A stretch of 64,000 nucleotides of DNA, from NCBI RefSeq assembly GCF_017569205.1, contig NZ_CP071870.1, positions 2,542,001-2,606,000 of the forward strand, given 5' to 3'. The DNA is from Propioniciclava sp. MC1595. Its GTDB lineage: Bacteria > Actinomycetota > Actinomycetes > Propionibacteriales > Propionibacteriaceae. Below are positions 19,742-42,028 of this stretch, piece after piece. The notes under the pieces are model-generated. The model searched no databases. It was not told the origin of the DNA and saw nothing but the letters and a program-made list of their open reading frames with translations. The translations under genes and the position numbers were made by a program. Position 1 is the stretch's first letter. Each line of letters starts with the position of its first letter.

Positions 19742-19835
19742 GTTGGGTCCTTATTGCTTCGTGGCACGGCCGGGACGCCGCGCCTGAGTTGGTGTTGCTG
19801 CCCGGGGTGACCCGGGCGATACGAACGCCCTCGCG

Positions 19836-20639
19836 TCAGTCCTTCTGGACCTGGGCGAAGGTGAGGTCCACGGGGGTCTCCCGCCCCAGGATCTCGACCA
19901 GTGCCTTGAGGCGCTGGTGGTTCGCATTGATCTCGGTGATGGTCGCGTGGACGCCCGAGAAGGGGCCCTGGACCACCATGACGGAGTCGCCCACCTTGAA
20001 GTCGGCGACCTCGACCTTCTTCTTCTTCGGCGTGGTCGGGCCGGACGCCGCGGCGTTGGCCTTCGCGATCGCCGCCGGGGCGAGCATCTTGACGACCTCG
20101 TCGATCGACAGCGGCACCGGCTGGCTGGCGTGCGCGACGAAGCCCGTCACGGACGGCGTCTGCCGGACCGCGGACCACGAGGCGTCCGTCAGCTCCATGC
20201 GCACCAGGACGTAGCCGGGCAGCACGGTGCGGGTGACGGTCTTGCGGGTGCCGTTGCGGGTCTCGACGACCTCCTCGGTCGGCACCACGGACTCGAAGAT
20301 GAAGTCCTCCATGCCCAGCGTCTGGATGCGGGCGTCGAGGTTATGCTTCACCCGGTTCTCCATGCCGGAGTAGGTGTGGATGACGTACCAGTCACCGAAC
20401 TCGCCGGACAGCCGCTCGCGCAGCTCGGCGACCACGGCCTCGTCGTCGGAGCCGCCGGCCTCGTCGGCCGCGGGCTCCTCGTCCTCGTCCTCGCCGAGGT
20501 TGAGCACGATGTCGTCGTCGGCGTCGGTGTCGTCGCCGAAGTCGAGGTTCAGCTCCACGTCCTCGGGAGTGATGTCCTCGATCGGACCGAGGTCGATCTC
20601 GACCTCGTCCGCGGTCACATCCTTGTCGTTCTCAGCCAT
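19836..20639 (-). CDS. nusG: Transcription termination/antitermination factor NusG
   Basis: NusG binds RNA polymerase, affects pausing and Rho action, and joins the rRNA antitermination complex. The product from ATG 20639 is 267 residues. Residues 1-78 are a strongly acidic extension rich in D and E; the NGN domain starts near [19 protein letters not shown], and the C-terminal KOW domain contains [21 protein letters not shown]. coli NusG is about 180 residues, so the acidic N-terminus and the interdomain [10 protein letters not shown] linker are additions that many actinobacteria share. It follows secE by 20 bp, the usual arrangement. Confidence 0.97.
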
Positions 20640-32052: not shown

Positions 32053-32396
32053 CCCTTCGACAGGCTCAGGGACCCGACCGACAGGCTCAGGGATCGGGTC
32101 CGGCCCACCGGTCGATCAAGCTCATCTACGACAAGTGCACCTCGTGCATGATCTGCGTGCGCGAGTGCCCCGCCTGGTGCATCGCGCTGAGCAGCCACGC
32201 CGAACCGATCCCGGGCAGCCCGCCCGGGCCGCGACAGCGCACCCACAACATCCTGGACGCGTTCTCGATCGACTGGTCGTTGTGCCTGTACTGCGGCATC
32301 TGCATCGAGGAGTGCCCCTTCGACGCCCTCGAGTGGAGCGACGACTTGCCGAAGCCCGCGGCGTCCGCAGGCGACCTGGTCGAAGAGCTCGCGTAA
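32049..32396 (+). CDS. NuoI-like 2x[4Fe-4S] ferredoxin subunit
   Basis: A 115-residue protein with two 4Fe-4S motifs: CTSCMICVRECPAWC and CLYCGICIEECPFDAL, each CxxCxxCxxxCP. Spacing and the DALEW ending fit NuoI-like subunits of complex I and related complexes. The first 18 codons after GTG 32049 come from two copies of the dispersed repeat CCCTTCGACAGGCTCAGGG, reading LRQAQG and RQAQGS. The start overlaps the NuoC-like stop by 4 bp (GTGA). It is the last gene of the trio and is followed by the cysteine leader region. Confidence 0.82.
   Translation: MTLRQAQGPDRQAQGSGPAHRSIKLIYDKCTSCMICVRECPAWCIALSSHAEPIPGSPPGPRQRTHNILDAFSIDWSLCLYCGICIEECPFDALEWSDDLPKPAASAGDLVEELA
32053..32098 (+). repeat. 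Two adjacent copies of the CCCTTCGACAAGCTCAGGG repeat
   Basis: Copy one (32053-32071) reads CCCTTCGACAGGCTCAGGG; copy two (about 32076-32098) is a variant with GACCGACAGGCTCAGGGA inside an outer CCCGA/TCGGG frame. Both are translated in the start of the NuoI-like gene. This short imperfect palindrome is widespread between genes in many high-GC actinobacteria. Confidence 0.75.
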
Positions 32397-32445
32397 AGGT
32401 GCCCACATGCTGGACCGCCAGTTCGTGACCGGCCGCGCAGTCCGT

Positions 32446-32457
32446 TAGCGTTCAACC
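32446..32457 (+). promoter_or_regulatory. -10 element placing transcription start at the leader-peptide ATG
   Basis: TAGCGT (32446-32451) matches the TAnnnT -10 pattern and lies six bases before the ATG at 32458, so transcription would start at or next to that A, giving a leaderless mRNA. The -35 region is weak (TTCGTG at 32422-32427, 18-nt spacer). The interval 32397-32445 holds nothing else that I can identify. Confidence 0.5.
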
Positions 32458-32544
32458 ATGCTGAATCGGATGCCGAAGCTCGTGGGCCGCCCCCACGTGG
32501 ACTTCGCGCGCGTCCGTTCCTCGCAGTGTTGTCGCGGCTGCTGA
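32458..32544 (+). CDS. Cysteine-rich leader peptide (attenuator)
   Basis: A 28-codon frame, from ATG 32458 to TGA 32542-32544, containing RPHVDFARV and ending SSQCCRGC, so three of its last five codons are Cys. It has no Shine-Dalgarno sequence and appears to start at the transcript 5' end. A terminator-like hairpin follows (32571-32601), then the sulfite reductase gene. Short leaderless frames ending in Cys runs are known in mycobacteria as cysteine-sensing attenuators, and similar H-hydrophobic-R-V...C leader peptides precede sulfur genes in other actinobacteria. Inferred role: when charged tRNA-Cys is scarce, ribosomes stall on the Cys codons and the downstream structure changes so that the assimilation operon is expressed. 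Confidence 0.75.
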   Translation: MLNRMPKLVGRPHVDFARVRSSQCCRGC

Positions 32545-32570
32545 CGCGCCCGCACCTCTCCATCTGACCG

Positions 32571-32601
32571 CCGGGCCGCGTTGCCCGGACTCCCCATTTT
32601 T
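32571..32601 (+). terminator. Terminator-like hairpin after the cysteine leader
   Basis: The stem CCGGGC/GCCCGG (32571-32576 with 32583-32588, loop CGCGTT) is followed by ACTCCCC and then a run of five T (32597-32601). It starts 26 bases after the leader stop. A second hairpin GCCCAAG/CTTGGGC (about 32608-32625) follows and may be part of an alternative fold. Confidence 0.6.
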
Positions 32602-32666
32602 CGCCATGCCCAAGCCACCCTTGGGCGTGCGTCCGGTCAGCGGGGCCGCAACCCGAGGACACCACC

Positions 32667-34388
32667 ATGAGCACCGACACCTCCGTGCACTCCGCCGCCC
32701 TGCCGGGCGCGAAGGTACGCCCACCCCGCGAGGGCCGCAGCAACGGCCAGTGGCTCGTCGACGGCCACGACCCCCTCAACCACAACGAGGAGTTCAAGGC
32801 CGCCGACAACGGCCTGAACGTCCGTGAGCGCATCGAGACGATCTACGCCCGCGAGGGCTTCGCCTCCATCCCGCACGACGACCTGCACGGCCGCATGCGC
32901 TGGTGGGGCCTCTACACCCAACGTCGCCAGGACATCGACGGCGGCCGCACCGGCAACCTGTCGGCCGACGAGCTGTCCGATGAGTACTTCATGCTGCGCG
33001 TGCGCATCGACGGCGGCGCCTTGACGCTGGACCAACTGCGCGTCGTCGCCCAGATCAGCGTCGACTTCGCCCGCGACACCGCCGACATCTCCGACCGGCA
33101 GAACATCCAGTACCACTGGATCCGGATCGAGGACGTCCCCGAGATCTGGCGCCGGCTCGAATCGGTCGGGCTGCAGACCACGACCGCGTGCGGCGACACC
33201 CCGCGCGTGATCCTCGGCTCGCCGGTGGCCGGCATCGCCGCCGACGAGATCATCGACCCCACCCCCGCCATCACCGAGATCGTCGACCGGTTCATCGGCG
33301 ACCCCGAGCTGACCAACCTGCCGCGCAAGTTCAAGTCCGCGATCACCGGGCACCCCAGCCTCGACGTGGTGCACGAGATCAACGACGTCTCCCTGGTCGG
33401 CGTCGTGCACCCCGAGTTCGGGCCCGGCTACGACCTGTGGGTCGGCGGTGGGCTGTCGACGGCCCCCCGCCTGGCCGAGCGGCTGGGCGTCTGGGTCGCC
33501 CCCGACCGGGCCGCCGACGCGTGGCACGGCGTGGTGCGGATCTTCCGCGACTACGGCTACCGCCGGTTACGCAACAAGGCTCGCCTGAAGTTCCTGCTCG
33601 CCGAGTGGGGGCCGGCCAAGTTCCGTCAGGTGCTCGAGACCGAGTACCTCGGCTATGCCCTGCCCGACGGCCCGGCCGCCGTGGCCTCGGGTGGGGACGC
33701 CGACCACGTGGGCGTCCACGAGCAGAAAGACGGACGCCGCTACGTCGGCCTCGCGCCCGTCGTGGGCCGCTCGTCGGGGTCGACGCTGCTGAAGCTGGCC
33801 GACGCCGCCGAGGCGGCGGGGTCGGGCCGCATCGCCTTCACCCCGCACCAGAAGGTCGTCGTGCTCGACGTCGACCCCGCGCGGTTGGACGCCCTGCTCG
33901 CCACCGCCGAGGAGATCGGACTGACCGCCAACCCGGGGGCGTTCCGGCGCAACACGATGGCCTGCACCGGCATCGAGTTCTGCAAGCTCGCCTTCGTCGA
34001 CACCAAGGACACCGCGACCGCGGCCGTGGAGGTGCTCGACAACCGGCTGGCCGACCTCGGGCTCGACGTGCCGATCACGCTCAACGTGAACGGCTGCCCC
34101 AACAGTTGCGCGCGCATCCAGACCGCCGACATCGGCCTCAAGGGCCAGATCGCCAAGAGCCCGGACGGGGCCGACGAGTTCGCGTTCCAGGTGCACCTGG
34201 GCGGCGGGCTGGCTTCGGCCGACCGCGAGGAGGCCGGCCTGGGCCGCACACTGCGCGGGCTGAAGATCACCGCCGAGGAGATGCCGGACTACGTCGAACG
34301 CGTCACCCGCCGGTTCGCCGCCGAGCGCACGCCGGGCGAGTCGTTCGCCACGTGGGCCCACCGCGCCGACGAGGAGGCACTGCGATGA
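32667..34388 (+). CDS. sir: Ferredoxin-dependent assimilatory sulfite reductase
   Basis: A 573-residue siroheme/[4Fe-4S] enzyme that reduces sulfite to sulfide using six electrons from ferredoxin. The cofactor cysteines are C433 and C439 in ACTGIEFCKLAF and C477 and C481 in NGCPNSCAR. The first half-domain has DISDRQNIQYHWI and TACGDTPRVILG. Nitrite reductase of the same family cannot be excluded on sequence, but location just before cysH-cysD-cysN and after a cysteine leader argues for sulfite. It overlaps cysH by 4 bp. RBS GAGGACACC precedes ATG 32667. Siroheme would be completed by the chelatase gene at 38434. Confidence 0.93.
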   Translation: MSTDTSVHSAALPGAKVRPPREGRSNGQWLVDGHDPLNHNEEFKAADNGLNVRERIETIYAREGFASIPHDDLHGRMRWWGLYTQRRQDIDGGRTGNLSADELSDEYFMLRVRIDGGALTLDQLRVVAQISVDFARDTADISDRQNIQYHWIRIEDVPEIWRRLESVGLQTTTACGDTPRVILGSPVAGIAADEIIDPTPAITEIVDRFIGDPELTNLPRKFKSAITGHPSLDVVHEINDVSLVGVVHPEFGPGYDLWVGGGLSTAPRLAERLGVWVAPDRAADAWHGVVRIFRDYGYRRLRNKARLKFLLAEWGPAKFRQVLETEYLGYALPDGPAAVASGGDADHVGVHEQKDGRRYVGLAPVVGRSSGSTLLKLADAAEAAGSGRIAFTPHQKVVVLDVDPARLDALLATAEEIGLTANPGAFRRNTMACTGIEFCKLAFVDTKDTATAAVEVLDNRLADLGLDVPITLNVNGCPNSCARIQTADIGLKGQIAKSPDGADEFAFQVHLGGGLASADREEAGLGRTLRGLKITAEEMPDYVERVTRRFAAERTPGESFATWAHRADEEALR

Positions 34389-35215
34389 GCCAAACCCAAG
34401 CCCTCGGCGTCCGAAACCCAAGCCCTCGGCAGGAAAAAGTGGAGCCCTCGGCGCTCGGGGTGGTCCCGGCACCGCACGGTCCCGGACGCCGGCGCTCGCC
34501 CGCCGAGCTGGAGGCCCTGGCCCGCGAGGCGTCCGTGCGGTTCGCCGACGCGAGCGCCGACGAGGTGCTGGCGTGGGCGTCCGAGACGTTCTCCGACGCC
34601 CTGGCCGTGGCCTGCTCGATGGCCGCCGACACGGTCGTGCCGCACCTGGCGGCCCGGCACCGCCCGGGGGTCGACGTGCTGTTCCTGCAGACCGGGTACC
34701 ACTTCCCCGAGACGATCGGCACCCGCGACGCCCTGGAGGCCACCAGCGACGTCACCATCGTCGACGTGTGGCCCGTGCAGACGGTCGCCGAGCAGGACGC
34801 CACGTTCGGCGCCCAGCTGCACGACCGGGACGCCCGGCAATGCTGCGGCCTGCGCAAGGTCGAGCCGATCAACCGCGAACTGGCCAGCTACGAGGCGTGG
34901 GTCACCGGCCTGCGCCGCGAGGACTCCCCGCTGCGCGCCGACACCCCGCTCGTGGAGTGGGACACCGCCCACCAGATGGTCAAGATCAACCCGATCGCCG
35001 CCTGGACCCACGACGAGGTGCTCGACCACGCCGCGGCACACGGCGTCCCGGTGAACCTGCTGCTGGCCGAGGGGTACCCGTCGATCGGGTGCGCCCCCTG
35101 CACCCGTCCCGTCGCCCCCGGCGAGGACCCCCGCGCCGGCCGCTGGGCCGGCCTGGCCAAGACCGAGTGCGGATTGCACGTCACCACCACCCACCCCGAG
35201 GAGGACCCCAAGTGA
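34385..35215 (+). CDS. cysH: Adenylylsulfate (APS) reductase
   Basis: A 276-residue thioredoxin-dependent reductase that turns APS into sulfite and AMP. The [4Fe-4S] ligands C153-C154 (RQCCGLRK) and C236/C239 (GCAPC) are present, so the substrate is APS rather than PAPS; the catalytic Cys is C262 in TECGLH. Residues 2-30 are an odd extension built from two 17-bp direct repeats (AACCCAAGCCCTCGGC core at about 34391 and 34413). ATG 34385 overlaps the sulfite reductase stop (ATGA). The stop overlaps the cysD GTG. Confidence 0.94.
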   Translation: MSQTQALGVRNPSPRQEKVEPSALGVVPAPHGPGRRRSPAELEALAREASVRFADASADEVLAWASETFSDALAVACSMAADTVVPHLAARHRPGVDVLFLQTGYHFPETIGTRDALEATSDVTIVDVWPVQTVAEQDATFGAQLHDRDARQCCGLRKVEPINRELASYEAWVTGLRREDSPLRADTPLVEWDTAHQMVKINPIAAWTHDEVLDHAAAHGVPVNLLLAEGYPSIGCAPCTRPVAPGEDPRAGRWAGLAKTECGLHVTTTHPEEDPK

Positions 35216-36183
35216 GCACCACCCAGGTCTCGACCGGCACGACCACCGACGAACCGACCACCGAGGTCTCGACAGGCTTGGCCCCCGTCCGCCAGCTCAG
35301 CCACCTGCGCGAGCTGGAGGCCGAGGGCATCCACATCATCCGCGAGGCCGTCAGCGAGCTGGAGCGCCCCGTGCTGCTGTTCTCCGGCGGCAAGGACTCC
35401 GTTGTCATGCTGCACCTGGCGCTGAAGGCGTTCTGGCCCGGACGCGTGCCGTTCCCGGTCATGCACGTCGACACCGGGCACAACTTCCCCGAGGTGATCG
35501 CCTACCGCGACCGCGTCGTCGAGCAGTACGGCCTGACCCTGGTCGTCGCCTCGGTGCAGGACTACATCGACGACGGCCGCCTGCTGGAGCGTGCCGACGG
35601 TACCCGCAACCCGTTGCAGACCCAGCCCTTGCTGGACGCCATCGCCGAGCACCGCTTCGACGCCGTCTTCGGTGGCGGACGCCGTGACGAGGAGAAGGCC
35701 CGCGCCAAGGAGCGCGTGGTCAGCCTGCGCGACGAGTTCGGCCAGTGGGACCCCCGCAACCAGCGCCCCGAGCTGTGGACGCTGTACAACCCGCGGCACC
35801 GGCCCGGCGAGCACGTGCGCGTGTTCCCGCTGAGCAACTGGACCGAGCTCGACGTCTGGCGCTACATCGAGGCCGAGCGCATCGAGCTGCCCGACCTCTA
35901 CTACGCCCACGACCGCGAGGTCTTCCTGCGCGACGGCATGTGGTTGGCCACCGGTCCGGTCGTCGAGCCGCGGGCTGGCGAACGGGCGCAGACGCGGCGC
36001 GTCCGCTACCGCACGGTCGGCGACATGAGTTGCACGGGCGCCGTCGAATCCGACGCCGCCACCATCGCCGACGTCATCACCGAGGTGGCCGCCACCCGCA
36101 TCACCGAGCGCGGGGCCACCCGCGCCGACGACCGCCTCACCGAGGCCGCCATGGAGGATCGCAAGAAGGAAGGGTACTTCTGA
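35212..36183 (+). CDS. cysD: Sulfate adenylyltransferase subunit 2
   Basis: The catalytic subunit that activates sulfate with ATP to APS. The 323-residue protein has the PP-loop SGGKDS at 58-63, HVDTGHNFPEV, and FGGGRRDEEKARAKER, and a C-terminal GDMSCTGAVES and KKEGYF, all as in CysD. The first 25 residues (MSTTQVSTGTTTDEPTTEVS) are low complexity and encoded by two copies of GGTCTCGACnGGC, a repeat-like motif. GTG 35212 overlaps the cysH stop. It forms a heterodimer with CysN. Confidence 0.96.
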   Translation: MSTTQVSTGTTTDEPTTEVSTGLAPVRQLSHLRELEAEGIHIIREAVSELERPVLLFSGGKDSVVMLHLALKAFWPGRVPFPVMHVDTGHNFPEVIAYRDRVVEQYGLTLVVASVQDYIDDGRLLERADGTRNPLQTQPLLDAIAEHRFDAVFGGGRRDEEKARAKERVVSLRDEFGQWDPRNQRPELWTLYNPRHRPGEHVRVFPLSNWTELDVWRYIEAERIELPDLYYAHDREVFLRDGMWLATGPVVEPRAGERAQTRRVRYRTVGDMSCTGAVESDAATIADVITEVAATRITERGATRADDRLTEAAMEDRKKEGYF

Positions 36184-37526
36184 TGGCTTCGACAAGCTCA
36201 GCCACCACCGTGACAAGCTCAGGCACCACGCTGCTTCGCCTGGCCACCGCCGGATCCGTCGACGACGGCAAGTCCACGCTCGTGGGGCGCCTGCTGTACG
36301 ACTCCAAGTCGGTGCTGACCGACCAACTGGACGCCGTGGAGCGGGTCTCCCGGGCCAAGGGCCTGGGCCACGTCGACCTCGCGCTGCTCACCGACGGCCT
36401 GCGCGCCGAGCGGGAGCAGGGCATCACGATCGACGTCGCCTACCGCTACTTCGCCACCGCGAACCGGACGTTCATCCTCGCCGACTGCCCCGGTCACGTG
36501 CAGTACACGCGCAACACCGTCACCGGCAGCTCGACCGCCGACGTGCTGGTGCTGCTCGTCGACGCGCGCAAGGGCGTCCAGGAGCAGACCCGCCGCCACC
36601 TCGCGGTGGGCCAGCTCCTGCGGGTGCCCACGATCGTCGTCGCGGTGAACAAGATGGACCTGGTCGACTTCGACCAAGCGACCTTCAACCGGGTCTCCTC
36701 CGAGGTCCGCGCCGTGGCCTCCGAGCTGGGCGTGGACGCCGTGCACACCATCCCGGTCTCGGCCCTGGAGGGCGACAACATCGTCGAGCGCTCGGCCCGG
36801 ACCCCGTGGTACGAGGGGCCCGCCCTGCTGGAGTTCCTGGAGCACGCACCCGCGGGTGCGGAGTTCGCCGACCTGCCCTTCCGGCTCCCGGTGCAGTTGT
36901 CGATCCGACCCCAGGACGCCGCGCCCGAGTTCCGGGAGTACCGCGGGTACGCCGGACAGGTCGCGACCGGCGTCGTCCGGGTGGGCGACCCCGTGGTCGT
37001 CCTCCCGGCCGGCCGACGCACGACGGTCACGGCCATCGACACAGCGGACGGGCCCCTGACCGAGGCGTTCGCGCCCCAGTCGGTGACCCTGCGGCTGGCC
37101 GACCCGATCGACACCACGCGCGGGGACCTGATCGCCGCGGCGTCCGATGCCCCCGAGCCCACGCAGGACCTCAGCGGCCTGGTCGCCTGGCTGGCCGAGA
37201 AGCCCCTGCGCGTCGGCGCACGCGTGCTGGTCAAGCACGGGACGCGGACCGTCCAGGGCGTCGTGCAGGACATCACCGGCCGGCTCGACCTGGACGCGCT
37301 CGCGCCCGTCCCGACCGACACACTGGAGTTGAACGACATCGGCCGGGTCACACTGCGCCTGGCCTCGCCCGTCGCCCCCGACGACTACACCGTGTCGCGG
37401 CGGACCGGCTCGTTCCTGCTCGTCGACCCCCAGACCGGCGGCACCCTGGCGGCCGGCATGGTGCGCGCCTTCGGGGACTTCGACGAGGCCGCCGAGCAGG
37501 CGGCCACCGTGAACTGGTCCATCTGA
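36183..37526 (+). CDS. cysN: Sulfate adenylyltransferase subunit 1 (GTPase)
   Basis: The 447-residue GTPase partner of CysD; GTP hydrolysis drives APS formation. It has the P-loop GSVDDGKST (residues 24-32), DCPGHVQYTRN, NKMDLVD and a late VSAL box, then the EF-Tu-like barrel domains. It ends without the fused APS kinase (CysC) domain, which fits a route through APS reductase. Residues 2-16 (ASTSSATTVTSSGTT) come from two degenerate copies of the TTCGACAAGCTCAG repeat. ATG 36183 overlaps the cysD stop by one base. Confidence 0.96.
   Translation: MASTSSATTVTSSGTTLLRLATAGSVDDGKSTLVGRLLYDSKSVLTDQLDAVERVSRAKGLGHVDLALLTDGLRAEREQGITIDVAYRYFATANRTFILADCPGHVQYTRNTVTGSSTADVLVLLVDARKGVQEQTRRHLAVGQLLRVPTIVVAVNKMDLVDFDQATFNRVSSEVRAVASELGVDAVHTIPVSALEGDNIVERSARTPWYEGPALLEFLEHAPAGAEFADLPFRLPVQLSIRPQDAAPEFREYRGYAGQVATGVVRVGDPVVVLPAGRRTTVTAIDTADGPLTEAFAPQSVTLRLADPIDTTRGDLIAAASDAPEPTQDLSGLVAWLAEKPLRVGARVLVKHGTRTVQGVVQDITGRLDLDALAPVPTDTLELNDIGRVTLRLASPVAPDDYTVSRRTGSFLLVDPQTGGTLAAGMVRAFGDFDEAAEQAATVNWSI
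36185..36226 (+). repeat. Two degenerate copies of the dispersed repeat in the cysN start
   Basis: GGCTTCGACAAGCTCAGCC (36185-36203) keeps complementary ends (GGC/GCC); GTGACAAGCTCAGGCAC (about 36210-36226) is a shorter relative. Both are translated within the first 16 codons of cysN. Confidence 0.6.
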
Positions 37527-38437
37527 TGAAGAAACTCCTACTGCTGGCCGTCGTCGGATTCGGCGCCCAGCTCGTCGACGGCGCCCTGGGCATGGGCTAC
37601 GGCGTCACGTCCACGTCGCTGCTGCTCATCGTCGGGCTGTCCCCCGCCCTGGCCTCGGCGTCGGTGCACCTGGCCGAGCTTGGCACCAACGTCGCCTCGG
37701 GGGTGTCGCACTGGCGGCTGGGCAACGTCGACTGGCGGCTCGTACTGCGGCTGGGCGTGCCCGGCGCGCTGGGCGCGTTCGCCGGTGCGACCTTCCTGTC
37801 GCACGTCTCGACCGCGCTGGCCAAGCCCCTCATGGCCGCGATCCTGGGCGGGTTGGGCATGTACATCCTGCTGCGCTACGCGTTCCGGCCGCCCGAGGTG
37901 GCCCAGGCACGCCGCTCGCCGCACACCGCGCGGTTCCTCGTGCCCCTCGGCCTGGCCGGCGGGTTCGTGGACGCCACCGGCGGCGGTGGCTGGGGGCCCG
38001 TCTCGACGACGTCGCTGCTCAGCGCCGGCCGGACGGCCCCGCGCACCGTGATCGGGTCGGTCGACACCTCCGAGTTCCTGGTGTCGCTGGCCGCCTCGCT
38101 CGGGTTCGTCCTGAACCTGGGGCTGCTCGGCATCGACTGGGGCATCGTCGCGGCCTTGTTGGCCGGCGGCCTGTTCGCCGCGCCCATCGCCGCCTGGCTG
38201 GTCTCGCGGATCCCCGCGCGCATCATGGGCGTGGCCGTGGGCGGGCTGATCATCATGACGAACCTGAAGACACTGTTCGACGCCACAGCACTGACGGGCG
38301 AGCAGGTCACCGTCGGGTTCACCCTGTTCGCCGCGGCCTGGCTCGGCCTCACCGCCTGGACCGCCTGGCGCCACGAACGCGCACGCCGGCAGGCGCTGGC
38401 CATCCGCGAGGCAGCAGAGACGGAGTGGTCGATATGA
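37526..38437 (+). CDS. TauE/SafE family permease
   Basis: A 303-residue membrane protein with about eight helices, of the TauE/SafE anion permease family. The family repeat is visible twice: AQLVDGALGMGYGVTSTSLLL and GFVDATGGGGWGPVSTTSLL. Members move sulfite, sulfoacetate or other organosulfur anions; within a sulfate-assimilation operon it could export surplus sulfite or import a sulfur source. The ATG at 37526 shares a base with the cysN stop. No ABC sulfate transporter is in the window, so import is a real alternative. Confidence 0.85.
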   Translation: MKKLLLLAVVGFGAQLVDGALGMGYGVTSTSLLLIVGLSPALASASVHLAELGTNVASGVSHWRLGNVDWRLVLRLGVPGALGAFAGATFLSHVSTALAKPLMAAILGGLGMYILLRYAFRPPEVAQARRSPHTARFLVPLGLAGGFVDATGGGGWGPVSTTSLLSAGRTAPRTVIGSVDTSEFLVSLAASLGFVLNLGLLGIDWGIVAALLAGGLFAAPIAAWLVSRIPARIMGVAVGGLIIMTNLKTLFDATALTGEQVTVGFTLFAAAWLGLTAWTAWRHERARRQALAIREAAETEWSI

Positions 38438-39129
38438 GTCCCACCGACACCCTCGTGCTGGCCTGGCACGGCAGCCGCAACCCGGCGGGCAAGGCCCTCA
38501 TCGAGCGCATCACGGCCCGCGTCGCCGGCCTCCTGCCGGGCGTGGCCGTGCACACCGCATGGGTCGACATCGAGCCCGAGCTGTTGCCCGAGACCCTGGC
38601 CCGGGTGGGAGAGTGCACGGTCGTGCCCTGCTTCCTCGCCTCCGGCTACCACGTCACCCACGACGTGCCGCAGGCCGCGGCGTCCGTGCCCTGGCCCGTG
38701 CGGGTCACCCCGCACCTGGGCGGGTCCCTGCACCGCGCCCTGCTCGACCGGGTCGCCGAGGCCGGCGGGCCCGGCGACGCGGTGGTGCTGGCCGCGGCCG
38801 GGTCGAAGAGCCCCGCCGCCCTGGCCGAGGTGGACGCCGTGGCGGCCCGGTTGGCCGCCGCCCTTGGCGTACCGGTGACGGTGGGCAACATCTACCTGTC
38901 CGAGCCGTCGGTGGCGGATGCGGTGGCCCTTCGACAAGCTCAGGGAACCGATGTCCTGGTGCTGCCGTACACGCTGGCGCCCGGGCTGTGGTGCGAGCGG
39001 GTCGCGGGCCTCGGCGTCCGGGTGGCGGAGCCCCTGGGCGACCACGCCGACGTGGCCGCAGGCATCGCTGGGCGATACCTCACCTCCGATTCCTCCGACG
39101 TGCGACTACTGTTGCCCCTTGAGTCTTGA
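38434..39129 (+). CDS. Sirohydrochlorin chelatase (CbiX/SirB type)
   Basis: A 231-residue class II chelatase made of two similar halves (LVLAWHGSRNPAG at the start; VVLAAAGSKSPAAL in the middle). The first half keeps the metal-binding His in HGS and a second in SGYHVTHDV. It would insert iron into sirohydrochlorin to give siroheme for the sulfite reductase of this operon. Residues 165-171 are encoded by a complete dispersed repeat (38927-38945), replacing or inserted in a surface loop before TDVLVLPYTLAPG. ATG 38434 overlaps the previous stop by 3 bp. Cobalt (B12) instead of iron is an alternative. Confidence 0.85.
   Translation: MSPTDTLVLAWHGSRNPAGKALIERITARVAGLLPGVAVHTAWVDIEPELLPETLARVGECTVVPCFLASGYHVTHDVPQAAASVPWPVRVTPHLGGSLHRALLDRVAEAGGPGDAVVLAAAGSKSPAALAEVDAVAARLAAALGVPVTVGNIYLSEPSVADAVALRQAQGTDVLVLPYTLAPGLWCERVAGLGVRVAEPLGDHADVAAGIAGRYLTSDSSDVRLLLPLES
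38927..38945 (+). repeat. Intact dispersed repeat inside the chelatase gene
   Basis: A perfect CCCTTCGACAAGCTCAGGG lies in frame in the chelatase gene and reads ALRQAQG. It has self-complementary ends (CCCT/AGGG). This is the same sequence family as at 32053-32098 and 36185-36226. Confidence 0.75.
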
Positions 39130-39149
39130 GTCCAGAAAGTAGCGCTCCC

Positions 39150-41000
39150 GTGACAGACGTCCAAACACTCGACCGCGTGGTGATCCGCTTCGCCGGTGAC
39201 TCCGGCGATGGCATGCAGTTGACCGGTGACCGGTTCACCTCCGATTCGGCGAGCCTCGGCAACGACTTTGCGACCCTGCCGAACTTCCCGGCCGAGATCC
39301 GCGCCCCGCAGGGCACGATCGCCGGCGTGTCGAGCTTCCAGCTCCACTTCGCCAACGACGACATCAAGACCCCCGGCGACAAGCCCGACGTGCTCGTGGC
39401 CATGAACCCGGCGGCCCTCAAGGCGAACCTGGCCGACCTCAAGCGCGGCGGCCTGATCATCGCCGACACCAACGAGTTCACCAAGCGCAACCTGGCCAAG
39501 GTCGGCTACGCCACCAACCCGCTCGAGGACGGCTCGCTGGTCGACTACCAGCTGCACGCCATCGACCTCACCGGCCTCACCGTGGCCTCGGTCGAGCAGT
39601 TCAAGCTCGGCCGCAAGGACGCCTCGCGGGCCAAGAACATGTTCTCCCTCGGCCTCCTGACCTGGCTGTACACCCGCCCGGCCGAGCACACGCTGGAGTT
39701 CCTGGACAAGAAGTTCTCCGGCGACCCCGACATCCGCGACTCGAACAAGGCCGCCTTCCTGGCCGGGCACGCGTACGGCGAGACCACCGAGACGTTCGCG
39801 GTGCGCTACGAGGTGGCCGCGGCCCCCGTGCCGCCGGGCACCTACCGGCAGATCACCGGCAACAAGGCGCTCGCGCTGGGCCTGATGGCCGGTGCCGCCA
39901 AGGCGAACCTGCCGCTGTTCCTGGGCGCCTACCCGATCACGCCGGCCTCCGACGTGTTGCACGAGCTGAGCCGCGCCAAGGACCAGGGCGTCACGACCTT
40001 CCAGGCCGAGGACGAGATCGCCGCCGCCGGCGCCGCGCTGGGCGCCTCCTACGCCGGGCACCTGGGCGTGACCACGACGTCGGGCCCGGGCATGGCGCTG
40101 AAGTCGGAGACGATCTCGCTGGCCGTGATGCTCGAGCAGCCCTTGGTGGTGTGCGACATCCAGCGCGCCGGCCCGTCGACGGGCATGCCGACCAAGACCG
40201 AGCAGGCCGACCTGTTGCAGTCGCTGTTCGGACGCCACGGCGAGGCCCCGCTGCCGGTGCTGGCCGCCCAGTCGCCGGCCGATTGCTTCGCGACCGCGGT
40301 CGAGGGCGTCCGGATCGCGCTGCGGTACCGCACCCCCGTGATCGTGCTGTCGGACGGTTACCTCGCCAACGGCGCCGAGCCCTGGCTCATCCCCGACCTG
40401 GCCGCGATGGACGTCATCGACCCGGGCTTCGCCACCGAGCCGAACGGCCCCGACGGCACCTTCCTGCCCTACCTGCGTGACGAGAAGCTCGCGCGGGCGT
40501 GGGCGATCCCGGGCACCCCCGGGCTCGAGCACCGCGTCGGCGGCATCGAGAAGGCCGACGGCACCGGCAACATCTCCTACGCGCCCGACAACCACGAGAA
40601 GATGGTGCGGCTGCGCCAGGCCAAGGTGGACGGGATCGTCGCCGACATCCCCGACCTGGTGGTCGACGACCCGAGCGGCGAGGCGTCCGTGCTGGTGCTG
40701 GGCTGGGGCTCGACGTGGGGCCCCATCGCGGCCGCCGCCAAGCGCGTGCGCGACACCGGCCGGAACATCGCGGTGACGCACATCCGCCACCTCAACCCGC
40801 TGCCGGCCAACACCGGCGAGGTGCTGCGCGCCTACGACCGCGTGGTCGTCCCCGAGATGAACACCGGCCAGCTGGCCATGATCCTGCGCGCGAAGTACCT
40901 GGTCGACGTGCAGTCCTACAGCCGCGTGCGCGGGCTGCCGATCAGCCCGGCCGAGCTGGCCCCCCACCTGGTCGACGTGATCGACGGAAAGGACGCGTGA
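39150..41000 (+). CDS. korA: 2-Oxoglutarate:ferredoxin oxidoreductase subunit alpha
   Basis: A 616-residue fused gamma-alpha subunit of a 2-oxoacid:ferredoxin oxidoreductase. The gamma part opens with VIRFAGDSGDGMQLTGDRF and APQGTIAGVSSFQ; the alpha part has GAYPITPASDVLHEL and TTTSGPGMALKSE. With KorB it would decarboxylate 2-oxoglutarate to succinyl-CoA and reduce ferredoxin. I prefer the GTG at 39150 (MTDVQTLDRVV) because it matches relatives; a TTG at 39126 overlapping the chelatase stop adds eight residues. The product ferredoxin could serve the sulfite reductase upstream. The substrate assignment follows the close pair KorAB of actinobacteria. Confidence 0.92.
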   Translation: MTDVQTLDRVVIRFAGDSGDGMQLTGDRFTSDSASLGNDFATLPNFPAEIRAPQGTIAGVSSFQLHFANDDIKTPGDKPDVLVAMNPAALKANLADLKRGGLIIADTNEFTKRNLAKVGYATNPLEDGSLVDYQLHAIDLTGLTVASVEQFKLGRKDASRAKNMFSLGLLTWLYTRPAEHTLEFLDKKFSGDPDIRDSNKAAFLAGHAYGETTETFAVRYEVAAAPVPPGTYRQITGNKALALGLMAGAAKANLPLFLGAYPITPASDVLHELSRAKDQGVTTFQAEDEIAAAGAALGASYAGHLGVTTTSGPGMALKSETISLAVMLEQPLVVCDIQRAGPSTGMPTKTEQADLLQSLFGRHGEAPLPVLAAQSPADCFATAVEGVRIALRYRTPVIVLSDGYLANGAEPWLIPDLAAMDVIDPGFATEPNGPDGTFLPYLRDEKLARAWAIPGTPGLEHRVGGIEKADGTGNISYAPDNHEKMVRLRQAKVDGIVADIPDLVVDDPSGEASVLVLGWGSTWGPIAAAAKRVRDTGRNIAVTHIRHLNPLPANTGEVLRAYDRVVVPEMNTGQLAMILRAKYLVDVQSYSRVRGLPISPAELAPHLVDVIDGKDA

Positions 41001-42028
41001 TGAGCACCGGACTCGCCGGCATCCCGTTGGCCCTCGAGCCCCTGAACCGCAAGGAGTTCGTCTCCGACCAGGAGGTGCGCTGGTGCCCCGGCTGCGGCGA
41101 CTACGCCGTGCTGGCCGCCTTCCAGTCGCTGATGCCCGAGCTGGGCGTCAAGCGCGAGAACACCGTCATCGTGTCGGGCATCGGCTGCTCGTCGCGATTC
41201 CCCTACTACGTGGACACCTACGGCCTGCACTCGATCCACGGCCGCGCGCCGTCGATCGCGACCGGTGTCGCGATGGCCCGGCCCGACCTGGCCGTGTGGG
41301 TGATGACCGGTGACGGCGACGCGCTGTCGATCGGCGGCAACCACCTGATCCACGCGCTGCGCCGCAACGTGAACATCACGATCATGCTGTTCAACAACCG
41401 CATCTACGGCCTGACCAAGGGCCAGTTCTCGCCGACGTCGGAGGCGGGCAAGGTCACGAAGAGCTCCCCGGCCGGGTCGGTGGACCACCCGTTCAACCCC
41501 GTCACGCTGGCGCTGGGGGCCGAGGCCTCGTTCGTCGCGCGCACGATCGACTCCGACCGCAAGCACCTCTCTGGCGTGCTCAAGGCCGCGATCGAGCACC
41601 GCGGGGCGTCGCTGGTGGAGATCTACCAGAACTGCCCGATCTTCAACGACGGCGCGTTCGACTCGCTCAAGGAGCAGAACACCCCCACCGTGATGCCGCT
41701 GGTGCACGGCGAGCCGATCACCTACGCCGGCGGCCAGCTGTGCGTGGTGCGGGGCGCCGACGGCCGGCTGGCCGTGAAGGCGACCTCCGACGTGGACCCG
41801 GCCTCGATCGTCGTGCACGACGCGCACGCCGCCGACGCCACCCTCGCCTTCGAGCTGTCCCAGCTGACCGACACGCAGAACCTGTCGGCGTCCCCGATCG
41901 GGATCTTCCGCAACGTGTCGCGCCCGGTGTTCGACGACGAGGCGCGGCGCCAGGTCTCCATGCCCGCCGACCGCGAGGCCGCCCTCCAGCGGCTGGTGTC
42001 GGGCCCCGACACGTGGACGGTCATCTGA
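41000..42028 (+). CDS. korB: 2-Oxoglutarate:ferredoxin oxidoreductase subunit beta
   Basis: A 342-residue thiamine-diphosphate subunit. The first cluster cysteines are in RWCPGCGDYAVL, a further one in GIGCSSRFPYY, and the ThDP/metal motif is TGDGDALSIGGNH with NNRIYGLTKGQ. The ATG at 41000 overlaps the korA stop by one base, so the pair is coupled. It ends the plus-strand redox block; the next gene is convergent. Confidence 0.94.
   Translation: MSTGLAGIPLALEPLNRKEFVSDQEVRWCPGCGDYAVLAAFQSLMPELGVKRENTVIVSGIGCSSRFPYYVDTYGLHSIHGRAPSIATGVAMARPDLAVWVMTGDGDALSIGGNHLIHALRRNVNITIMLFNNRIYGLTKGQFSPTSEAGKVTKSSPAGSVDHPFNPVTLALGAEASFVARTIDSDRKHLSGVLKAAIEHRGASLVEIYQNCPIFNDGAFDSLKEQNTPTVMPLVHGEPITYAGGQLCVVRGADGRLAVKATSDVDPASIVVHDAHAADATLAFELSQLTDTQNLSASPIGIFRNVSRPVFDDEARRQVSMPADREAALQRLVSGPDTWTVI

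Follow-up and report, generated by a model that had tools for sequence, protein, structure and literature searches.

The locus considered here raises the question of whether the short open reading frame upstream of a set of sulfur genes is a cysteine-responsive leader peptide and, if so, by which route its translation could control the operon. In the window, i.e. the whole 64,000-nucleotide stretch of Propioniciclava sp. MC1595 DNA that was analysed, this frame precedes sulfate-assimilation genes as identified by their Pfam domains, which follow each other in the order NIR_SIR, two PAPS_reduct (read as cysH and cysD), a GTP_EFTU-type GTPase (cysN), TauE, CbiX and two oxidoreductase-like subunits. 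The ends of these genes touch or overlap (Table 1), and from the overlap it is plausible that leader control would extend to korAB. The latter 2-oxoacid:ferredoxin oxidoreductase pair, which overlaps the end of the sulfur operon, could by its inferred function deliver reduced ferredoxin to the sulfite reductase.

Table 1. Coordinates of the leader region and of the downstream genes within the window.
Feature	Position	Strand	Remarks
Imperfect inverted repeat CCACATGCTGG, possible regulator site	32403..32413	+	upstream of promoter
-10 hexamer TAGCGT	32446..32451	+	putative leaderless start; six bases before ATG
Leader peptide frame	32458..32544	+	28 codons and UGA: MLNRMPKLVGRPHVDFARVRSSQCCRGC; from letters, translation, NCBIfam matches and relatives
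Conserved core LV-x-R-x-HVDF-x-RV	32479..32514	+	R(-2) 85/85, L(-5) 83/85, R(+5) 81/85
Putative control Cys codon UGU	32527..32529	+	+11 from H; second UGU at 32530, UGC at 32539
CGCGCCCGC, proposed antiterminator strand	32545..32553	+	directly after stop; start of C-rich stretch
Hairpin CCGGGC-CGCGTT-GCCCGG	32571..32588	+	arms 32571-32576 and 32583-32588
T5	32597..32601	+	eight bases past stem
Second hairpin CATGCCCAAG-CCACC-CTTGGGCGTG	32605..32629	+	z 2.02; sequence not conserved
GAGGAC, Shine-Dalgarno site of sirA	32655..32660	+	could pair with TCCTCG of the leader
sirA, ferredoxin-type sulfite reductase	32667..34388	+	NIR_SIR 1e-56
cysH, cysD, cysN, TauE permease, CbiX-type chelatase	34385..39129	+	names inferred from domain and order
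Two 2-oxoacid:ferredoxin oxidoreductase subunits (korA/korB-like)	39126..42028	+	possible operon end

The initial annotation had described a 28-codon frame ending in SSQCCRGC, a TAGCGT exactly six bases before its ATG and the lack of a Shine-Dalgarno site, and all three are borne out by the letters: the frame runs from ATG (32458-32460) through 28 sense codons (32458-32541) to that C-terminal end and a TGA stop (32542-32544), the spacer between hexamer and ATG reads TCAACC, and inspection by eye found no purine-rich Shine-Dalgarno stretch 5' of the ATG. A consensus scan of positions 32300-32800 called no sigma-70 promoter. Rfam gathering matches in the window are confined to rRNA and tRNA with none at the leader, Pfam gave no match for the leader peptide, and the 3.43 Mb host genome holds no second clear copy (the other four matches have E values of at least 0.5). 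The window also contains a predicted tRNA-Sec gene (anticodon tca) at 19804-19895. Selenocysteine as the meaning of the UGA was considered; beyond the UGA the window frame meets no further stop before the sirA start, but the corresponding frame of the leader L086 closes after five codons (by eye), and the reading was rejected.

In order to place the frame among known leaders it was compared with two NCBIfam models, NF042936 (leader_Ms4527A) and NF042934 (cis_reg_atten, putative leader peptide). It shares with both an HVD-type core, a cysteine near the stop codon and a position before sulfur genes, but scores under their cut-offs (18.6 bits against 45, E 0.001, for NF042936; 17 bits against 27, E 0.0034, for NF042934). 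NF042934 exceeds its cut-off in 11 of 57 family genomes, five of the places lying just 5' of sirA (G054, G051, G020, G015 and G056); at 1e-4 it is found in 6 of 149 genomes of a phylum sample, all from the same class, while at E≤1 it also matches 6 of the 14 controls, though always below the cut-off. NF042936 at E≤0.001 matches 97 of 197 class genomes, ten of them over the cut-off, and none of the 14 controls.

A search of related genomes for short frames with an RxHVDxxRV...C pattern before sulfur genes, as proposed initially, finds them recurring before sirA: leaders of the form R-x-H-V-D-[LF]-x-R-V-x-S-x-x-C stand 5' of sulfite reductase in relatives. A sirA gene was identified in 56 of 97 family genomes, and an HVD leader in 20 of the 53 upstream regions examined, the window apart. 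Within 134 regions from the family, named relatives and the window, 27 harbored a short frame containing both H[VIL][DE] and Cys, from which three spurious frames (L025, L032, L109) and two copies (L006 of L088, L035 of L112) were left out. Together with three further genus members the family set comprises 25 leaders; 72 class leaders, taken from 70 stretches among the NF042936 matches listed (one of 73 rows, the second of L140, was left out), complete a set of 97 from 22 GTDB family codes. A second sample was found with the other model, NF042934 (20 of 26 places). Conservation of H, V, D and C in these samples is biased upward because they were chosen partly by motif, whereas neither UGU nor, among the family leaders, R(-2) (25 of 25) was selected for; the leader counts take kinship as it is.

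Among proteins encoded behind the listed class leaders, 40 of 69 contain a sulfite-reductase ferredoxin-like domain and 5 of 69 PAPS_reduct. These counts are lower bounds, since the proteins are the longest frames found (for 69 of 72 leaders) and some lie in the wrong frame. Divergently arranged sirA and cysH (or sirA and a second gene) each have their own HVD leader in L163, L171, L186 and L199, the leaders being about 110-160 bases apart. In three genomes, likely of Streptomyces (G114, G135 and G153; L219-L236 and L207), five to ten HVD- or AVD-type leaders occur per genome, suggesting a leader-peptide regulon before several sulfur genes. Two further HVD-type leaders, L153 and L154, precede a gene for cysteine dioxygenase, a cysteine-degrading enzyme; as this enzyme is catabolic, its induction by cysteine shortage is unexpected, which counts against the cysteine-shortage reading. 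Where regions lack an HVD leader, 41 of 110 contain a frame with at least two cysteines in its last 12 residues, 18 of these 41 with a leaderless -10, so that in some relatives poly-Cys frames appear to take the place of HVD leaders.

The spacing of the -10 element is itself conserved. In 76 of 94 leaders the pattern -A---T precedes an in-frame ATG or GTG by 6-7 nt, compared to 4-17 of 94 at seven other spacings, and the window leader fits this spacing, from which its leaderless start is inferred. Further upstream, CCACATGCTGG represents an inverted-repeat-like pattern, CCACATNNTGG (or CCATCATCYGG), which was defined post hoc. This pattern is located at -80 to -95 relative to the H codon in 9 of the 25 family leaders, against a shuffled expectation of 0.07, namely in the window, L086, L087, L100, L103, L108, L136, L211 and L216; it is also found 5' of sirA in L012, L018, L073 and L133. 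With one mismatch allowed, the host genome yielded 33 matches versus 16 for the control. The pattern is perhaps a candidate site for a sulfur regulator.

A further feature of the leaders is the codon chosen for the key cysteine. Counted from H, the first key Cys follows at a distance of 11 in 74, 12 in 6, 10 in 2 and 9 in 10 of 94 leaders and is absent from two. It is encoded by TGT in 89 and by TGC in 3 of the 92 leaders possessing it; for the 85 of 94 leaders with a Cys codon at +11 the numbers are 83 and 2. At +7 of the same peptides Cys is encoded by TGC in 22 and TGT in 8 cases (Fisher p 6e-15), and the second sample has TGT at +11 in 20 of 20 and, at +4, eight TGC and one TGT. Comparing further, 47 downstream genes contain 14 TGT and 184 TGC, while sirA, cysH, cysD and cysN of the window contain no TGT and 13 TGC. 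The third-base GC fraction is 0.02 at the key Cys versus 0.67-0.98 at the surrounding positions (-9 to +13). UGU is read by a G:U wobble, which is known to slow decoding and would be expected to do so in the leaders. RNA pairing is an unlikely cause of the UGU choice: the surroundings of the codon show no excess complementarity to the RNA after the stop (mean z 0.02 and -0.17). The third base of UGU is nevertheless paired with A in single-sequence folds of 13 of 25 and 40 of 70 leaders, which leaves this cause a small probability.

Conservation is also seen in the peptide. In the 85 leaders with the +11 spacing R(-2) is invariant and yet specified by four codons (CGC 30, CGG 27, CGA 15, CGT 13), L(-5) and R(+5) are almost as constant (Table 1), and in general synonymous codons vary while the motif is fixed. 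The initial proposal that the HVD motif may itself matter was well placed, as this motif surpasses the rest of the peptide in conservation and a single Cys lies between H and the stop in 46 of the 97 leaders. With UGU in the ribosomal A site, H would be ten residues back from the P-site residue, a position near the tunnel constriction. TnaC-type arrest peptides carry conserved residues about 8-12 positions from the peptidyl-transferase centre; the likeness of the window leader to these peptides is drawn from sequence conservation. L217 and L218, which are likely mycobacterial, carry RRAVDLCRVAGCCCCCCSC, so that in a leader with a long run H can be replaced by A.

By comparison with relatives, the claim of a leaderless cysteine-type leader peptide before a sulfur operon is well supported, and by its sequence the window frame is a genuine example of an already known kind of leader. 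We infer a cis-acting leader that would couple the supply of cysteinyl-tRNA to expression of the sirA operon. The transcript would begin at the ATG or directly beside it; as the RNA emerges, a ribosome would translate the frame until it has to wait for Cys-tRNA at the first UGU, the wobble pairing probably making this wait long and sensitive. At that moment LVxRxHVDFxRV would occupy the upper exit tunnel and probably prolong the pause; this would account for many relatives making do with a single Cys codon. If cysteine is ample, the ribosome would reach the UGA, cover CGCGCCCGC and depart, so that the CCGGGC/GCCCGG hairpin could form in the C-rich untranslated RNA and fewer transcripts would extend to sirA. 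If cysteine is low, the ribosome would halt before the UGA, CGCGCCCGC would base-pair with the hairpin's 5' arm, allowing the operon to be read. A footprint argument suggests that a terminating ribosome would cover CGCGCCCGC and one held at UGU would not. A response to cysteine-tRNA is quite probable, and for a leader with ribosome stalling, whatever its output, we estimate a probability of roughly 0.7.

The hairpin switch as the output is possible, though at somewhat less than even odds. The CCGGGC/GCCCGG hairpin of the initial annotation was found, and a T5 is likewise present in the letters; however, the T5 lies eight bases past the stem and the consensus scan called no terminator within 32300-32800, hence the hairpin is not a canonical intrinsic terminator. 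The attenuator proposed at the same time is half supported, by a hairpin conserved in Propionibacteriaceae: CGGGC-N4-10-GCCCG occurs in 13 of 25 leaders of this family (0.24 expected by shuffling) and in 1 of 71 listed class leaders (0.64 expected). The window hairpin has no adjacent U-tract, and only 5 of 25 family leaders have a hairpin followed by at least four T. CGCGCCCGC, which would pair with 32572-32580, is found immediately behind the stop codon in a group of 8 closely related leaders out of the 97. Across the family the pairing between the strand after the stop and the hairpin arm has a mean z of -0.83 with 4 of 21 leaders at p≤0.05 (window p 0.155), and in the wider class it is absent (mean z 0.02, 1 of 27 at p≤0.05); antiterminator pairing is thus only suggestive in Propionibacteriaceae. 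Covariation says little here because the stem core is invariant, and folds of three ribosome states for 10 family leaders disagreed among relatives. Judged by its sequence, the best independent case for the pairing is L034 (Tessaracoccus caeni), where a hairpin with a real U-tract is accompanied by a different but matching strand after the stop. That the tested mycobacterial leaders are reported, in the portions of the sources consulted, to act on translation counts against the hairpin switch.

Control at the level of translation, in which leader RNA pairs with the sirA Shine-Dalgarno site until a ribosome stalled at the Cys codons releases that site, is an unlikely output. The Ser-Ser codons TCCTCG (32518-32523) are complementary to this site, whose predicted unpaired fraction in the window is 0.18 in the free and 0.42 in the stalled state, compared to 0.35 for shuffled leaders (window rank 0.067); for L216 the values are 0.00 versus 0.46, and the M. 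smegmatis leaders are classed as translation attenuators in citing papers, as far as these could be consulted. Although appealing for the window and L216, sequestration by TCCTCG finds no general support in family or class. A first scoring covered 62 of 97 leaders and just four of the family because the stretches examined were short. With the known sirA start 23 of 25 family leaders could be scored (L136 and L137 have no usable start and the site of L211 is doubtful), giving a mean unpaired fraction of 0.295 versus 0.338 for shuffled leaders; in the class it is 0.292 versus 0.300 (mean rank 0.45, 58 leaders). Moreover, anti-Shine-Dalgarno words are depleted after the stop (33 versus 48 expected, of 96).

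An output through Rho, for which the C-rich, G-poor RNA after the stop would be a loading stretch exposed as the leader ribosome leaves, appears equally improbable. Over the 40 nt that follow the stop, C outnumbers G in 95 of 97 leaders (24 of 25 in the family, 71 of 72 in the listed class; 20 C and 11 G in the window), with mean skews of -0.23 and -0.29, respectively, versus about 0 upstream of the leader. The 110 control regions, however, lean slightly the same way (-0.07), base composition alone is insufficient for a Rho site, and by the footprint argument a ribosome held at UGU would leave this stretch uncovered as well. Rho was proposed for cys leaders in 2005, according to the portion consulted (PMC1262725).

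It is quite unlikely that the nascent chain works like the tryptophan-sensing TnaC and detects a small molecule inside the tunnel, be it cysteine or a different sulfur metabolite, the Cys codon being a mere stopping place. The fixed residues, their fixed distance of 11-12 residues to the key Cys and the many single-Cys leaders would suit such a sensor, but the strictness with which UGU is used argues for decoding at this codon, relatives have non-HVD poly-Cys frames at the same locus, and we know of no ligand for HVD leaders. Least of all does the frame look like one acting in trans or like a chance or decayed frame devoid of regulation, a very improbable reading favoured by its scores under both NCBIfam cut-offs and opposed by the conserved motif, its spacing, UGU, the promoter spacing and the place before sirA, since the leader and the -10 spacing recur and the hairpin exceeds shuffled expectation.

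The cysteinyl-tRNA-sensing leader preferred here resembles several described systems. Leaderless poly-Cys attenuators of Mycobacterium smegmatis were reportedly characterized by Canestrari et al. in 2020. As far as the sources could be consulted (PMC13236596, PMC9094748, PMC9031893), these attenuators are likewise leaderless, Cys-rich and located before cysteine genes, but possess long Cys runs and are reported to attenuate translation, whereas the window leader has few Cys, a fixed motif and a hairpin behind it. Candidate Cys leaders with ribosome occupancy are also mentioned (PMC4633059, in part). The cys leaders predicted in Mycobacterium and Propionibacterium acnes by Seliverstov in 2005 share the Cys codons near the stop and the place before a cys operon in a related organism; the portion consulted gives no terminators and no conserved hairpin (PMC1262725), contrary to the conserved hairpin of Propionibacteriaceae found here. 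uORFC-8-2 before cysS of Rhodobacterales is a Cys-codon attenuator too but, in the part available, relies mainly on UGC and an intrinsic terminator (PMC8632094), whereas the window leader uses UGU and has no adjacent U-tract. Eight leader peptides, none for cysteine, are listed in the accessible part of a Streptomyces lividans study (PMC8079986). One partly available source (PMC9094748) remarks that the GC signal at the third positions of such frames is reduced by their cysteine codons; the codon is unnamed there, and the remark agrees with the UGU choice. A description of the UGU rule was not found in the portions of the literature searched, a body to which Canestrari et al. 2020 did not belong, and the search returned no paper on HVDL leader peptides, nor one combining cysteine leader, Streptomyces, sulfite reductase and attenuation.

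Descriptions of cysteine leader control in actinobacteria have so far centred on Cys runs. Across 22 GTDB family codes, the comparison presented here suggests instead that the device has at its core a single UGU together with a fixed peptide motif. A tentative extension, clearly short of even odds, is a class-wide single-codon sensor assisted by the nascent chain, in which the HVD chain would prime the ribosome and one wobble-read UGU would sense cysteinyl-tRNA; if true, it would differ from both the codon runs of trpL-type attenuators and ligand-sensing arrest peptides such as TnaC. Two questions thereby become testable. One is whether a preference for codons read by wobble serves to tune how sensitive a sensor is; the other is whether attenuation by amino acids involves the nascent chain. 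Tests would be best directed at the UGU rule and the conservation at the peptide level, and UGU plus the HVD motif may serve as a rule for finding and annotating such frames.
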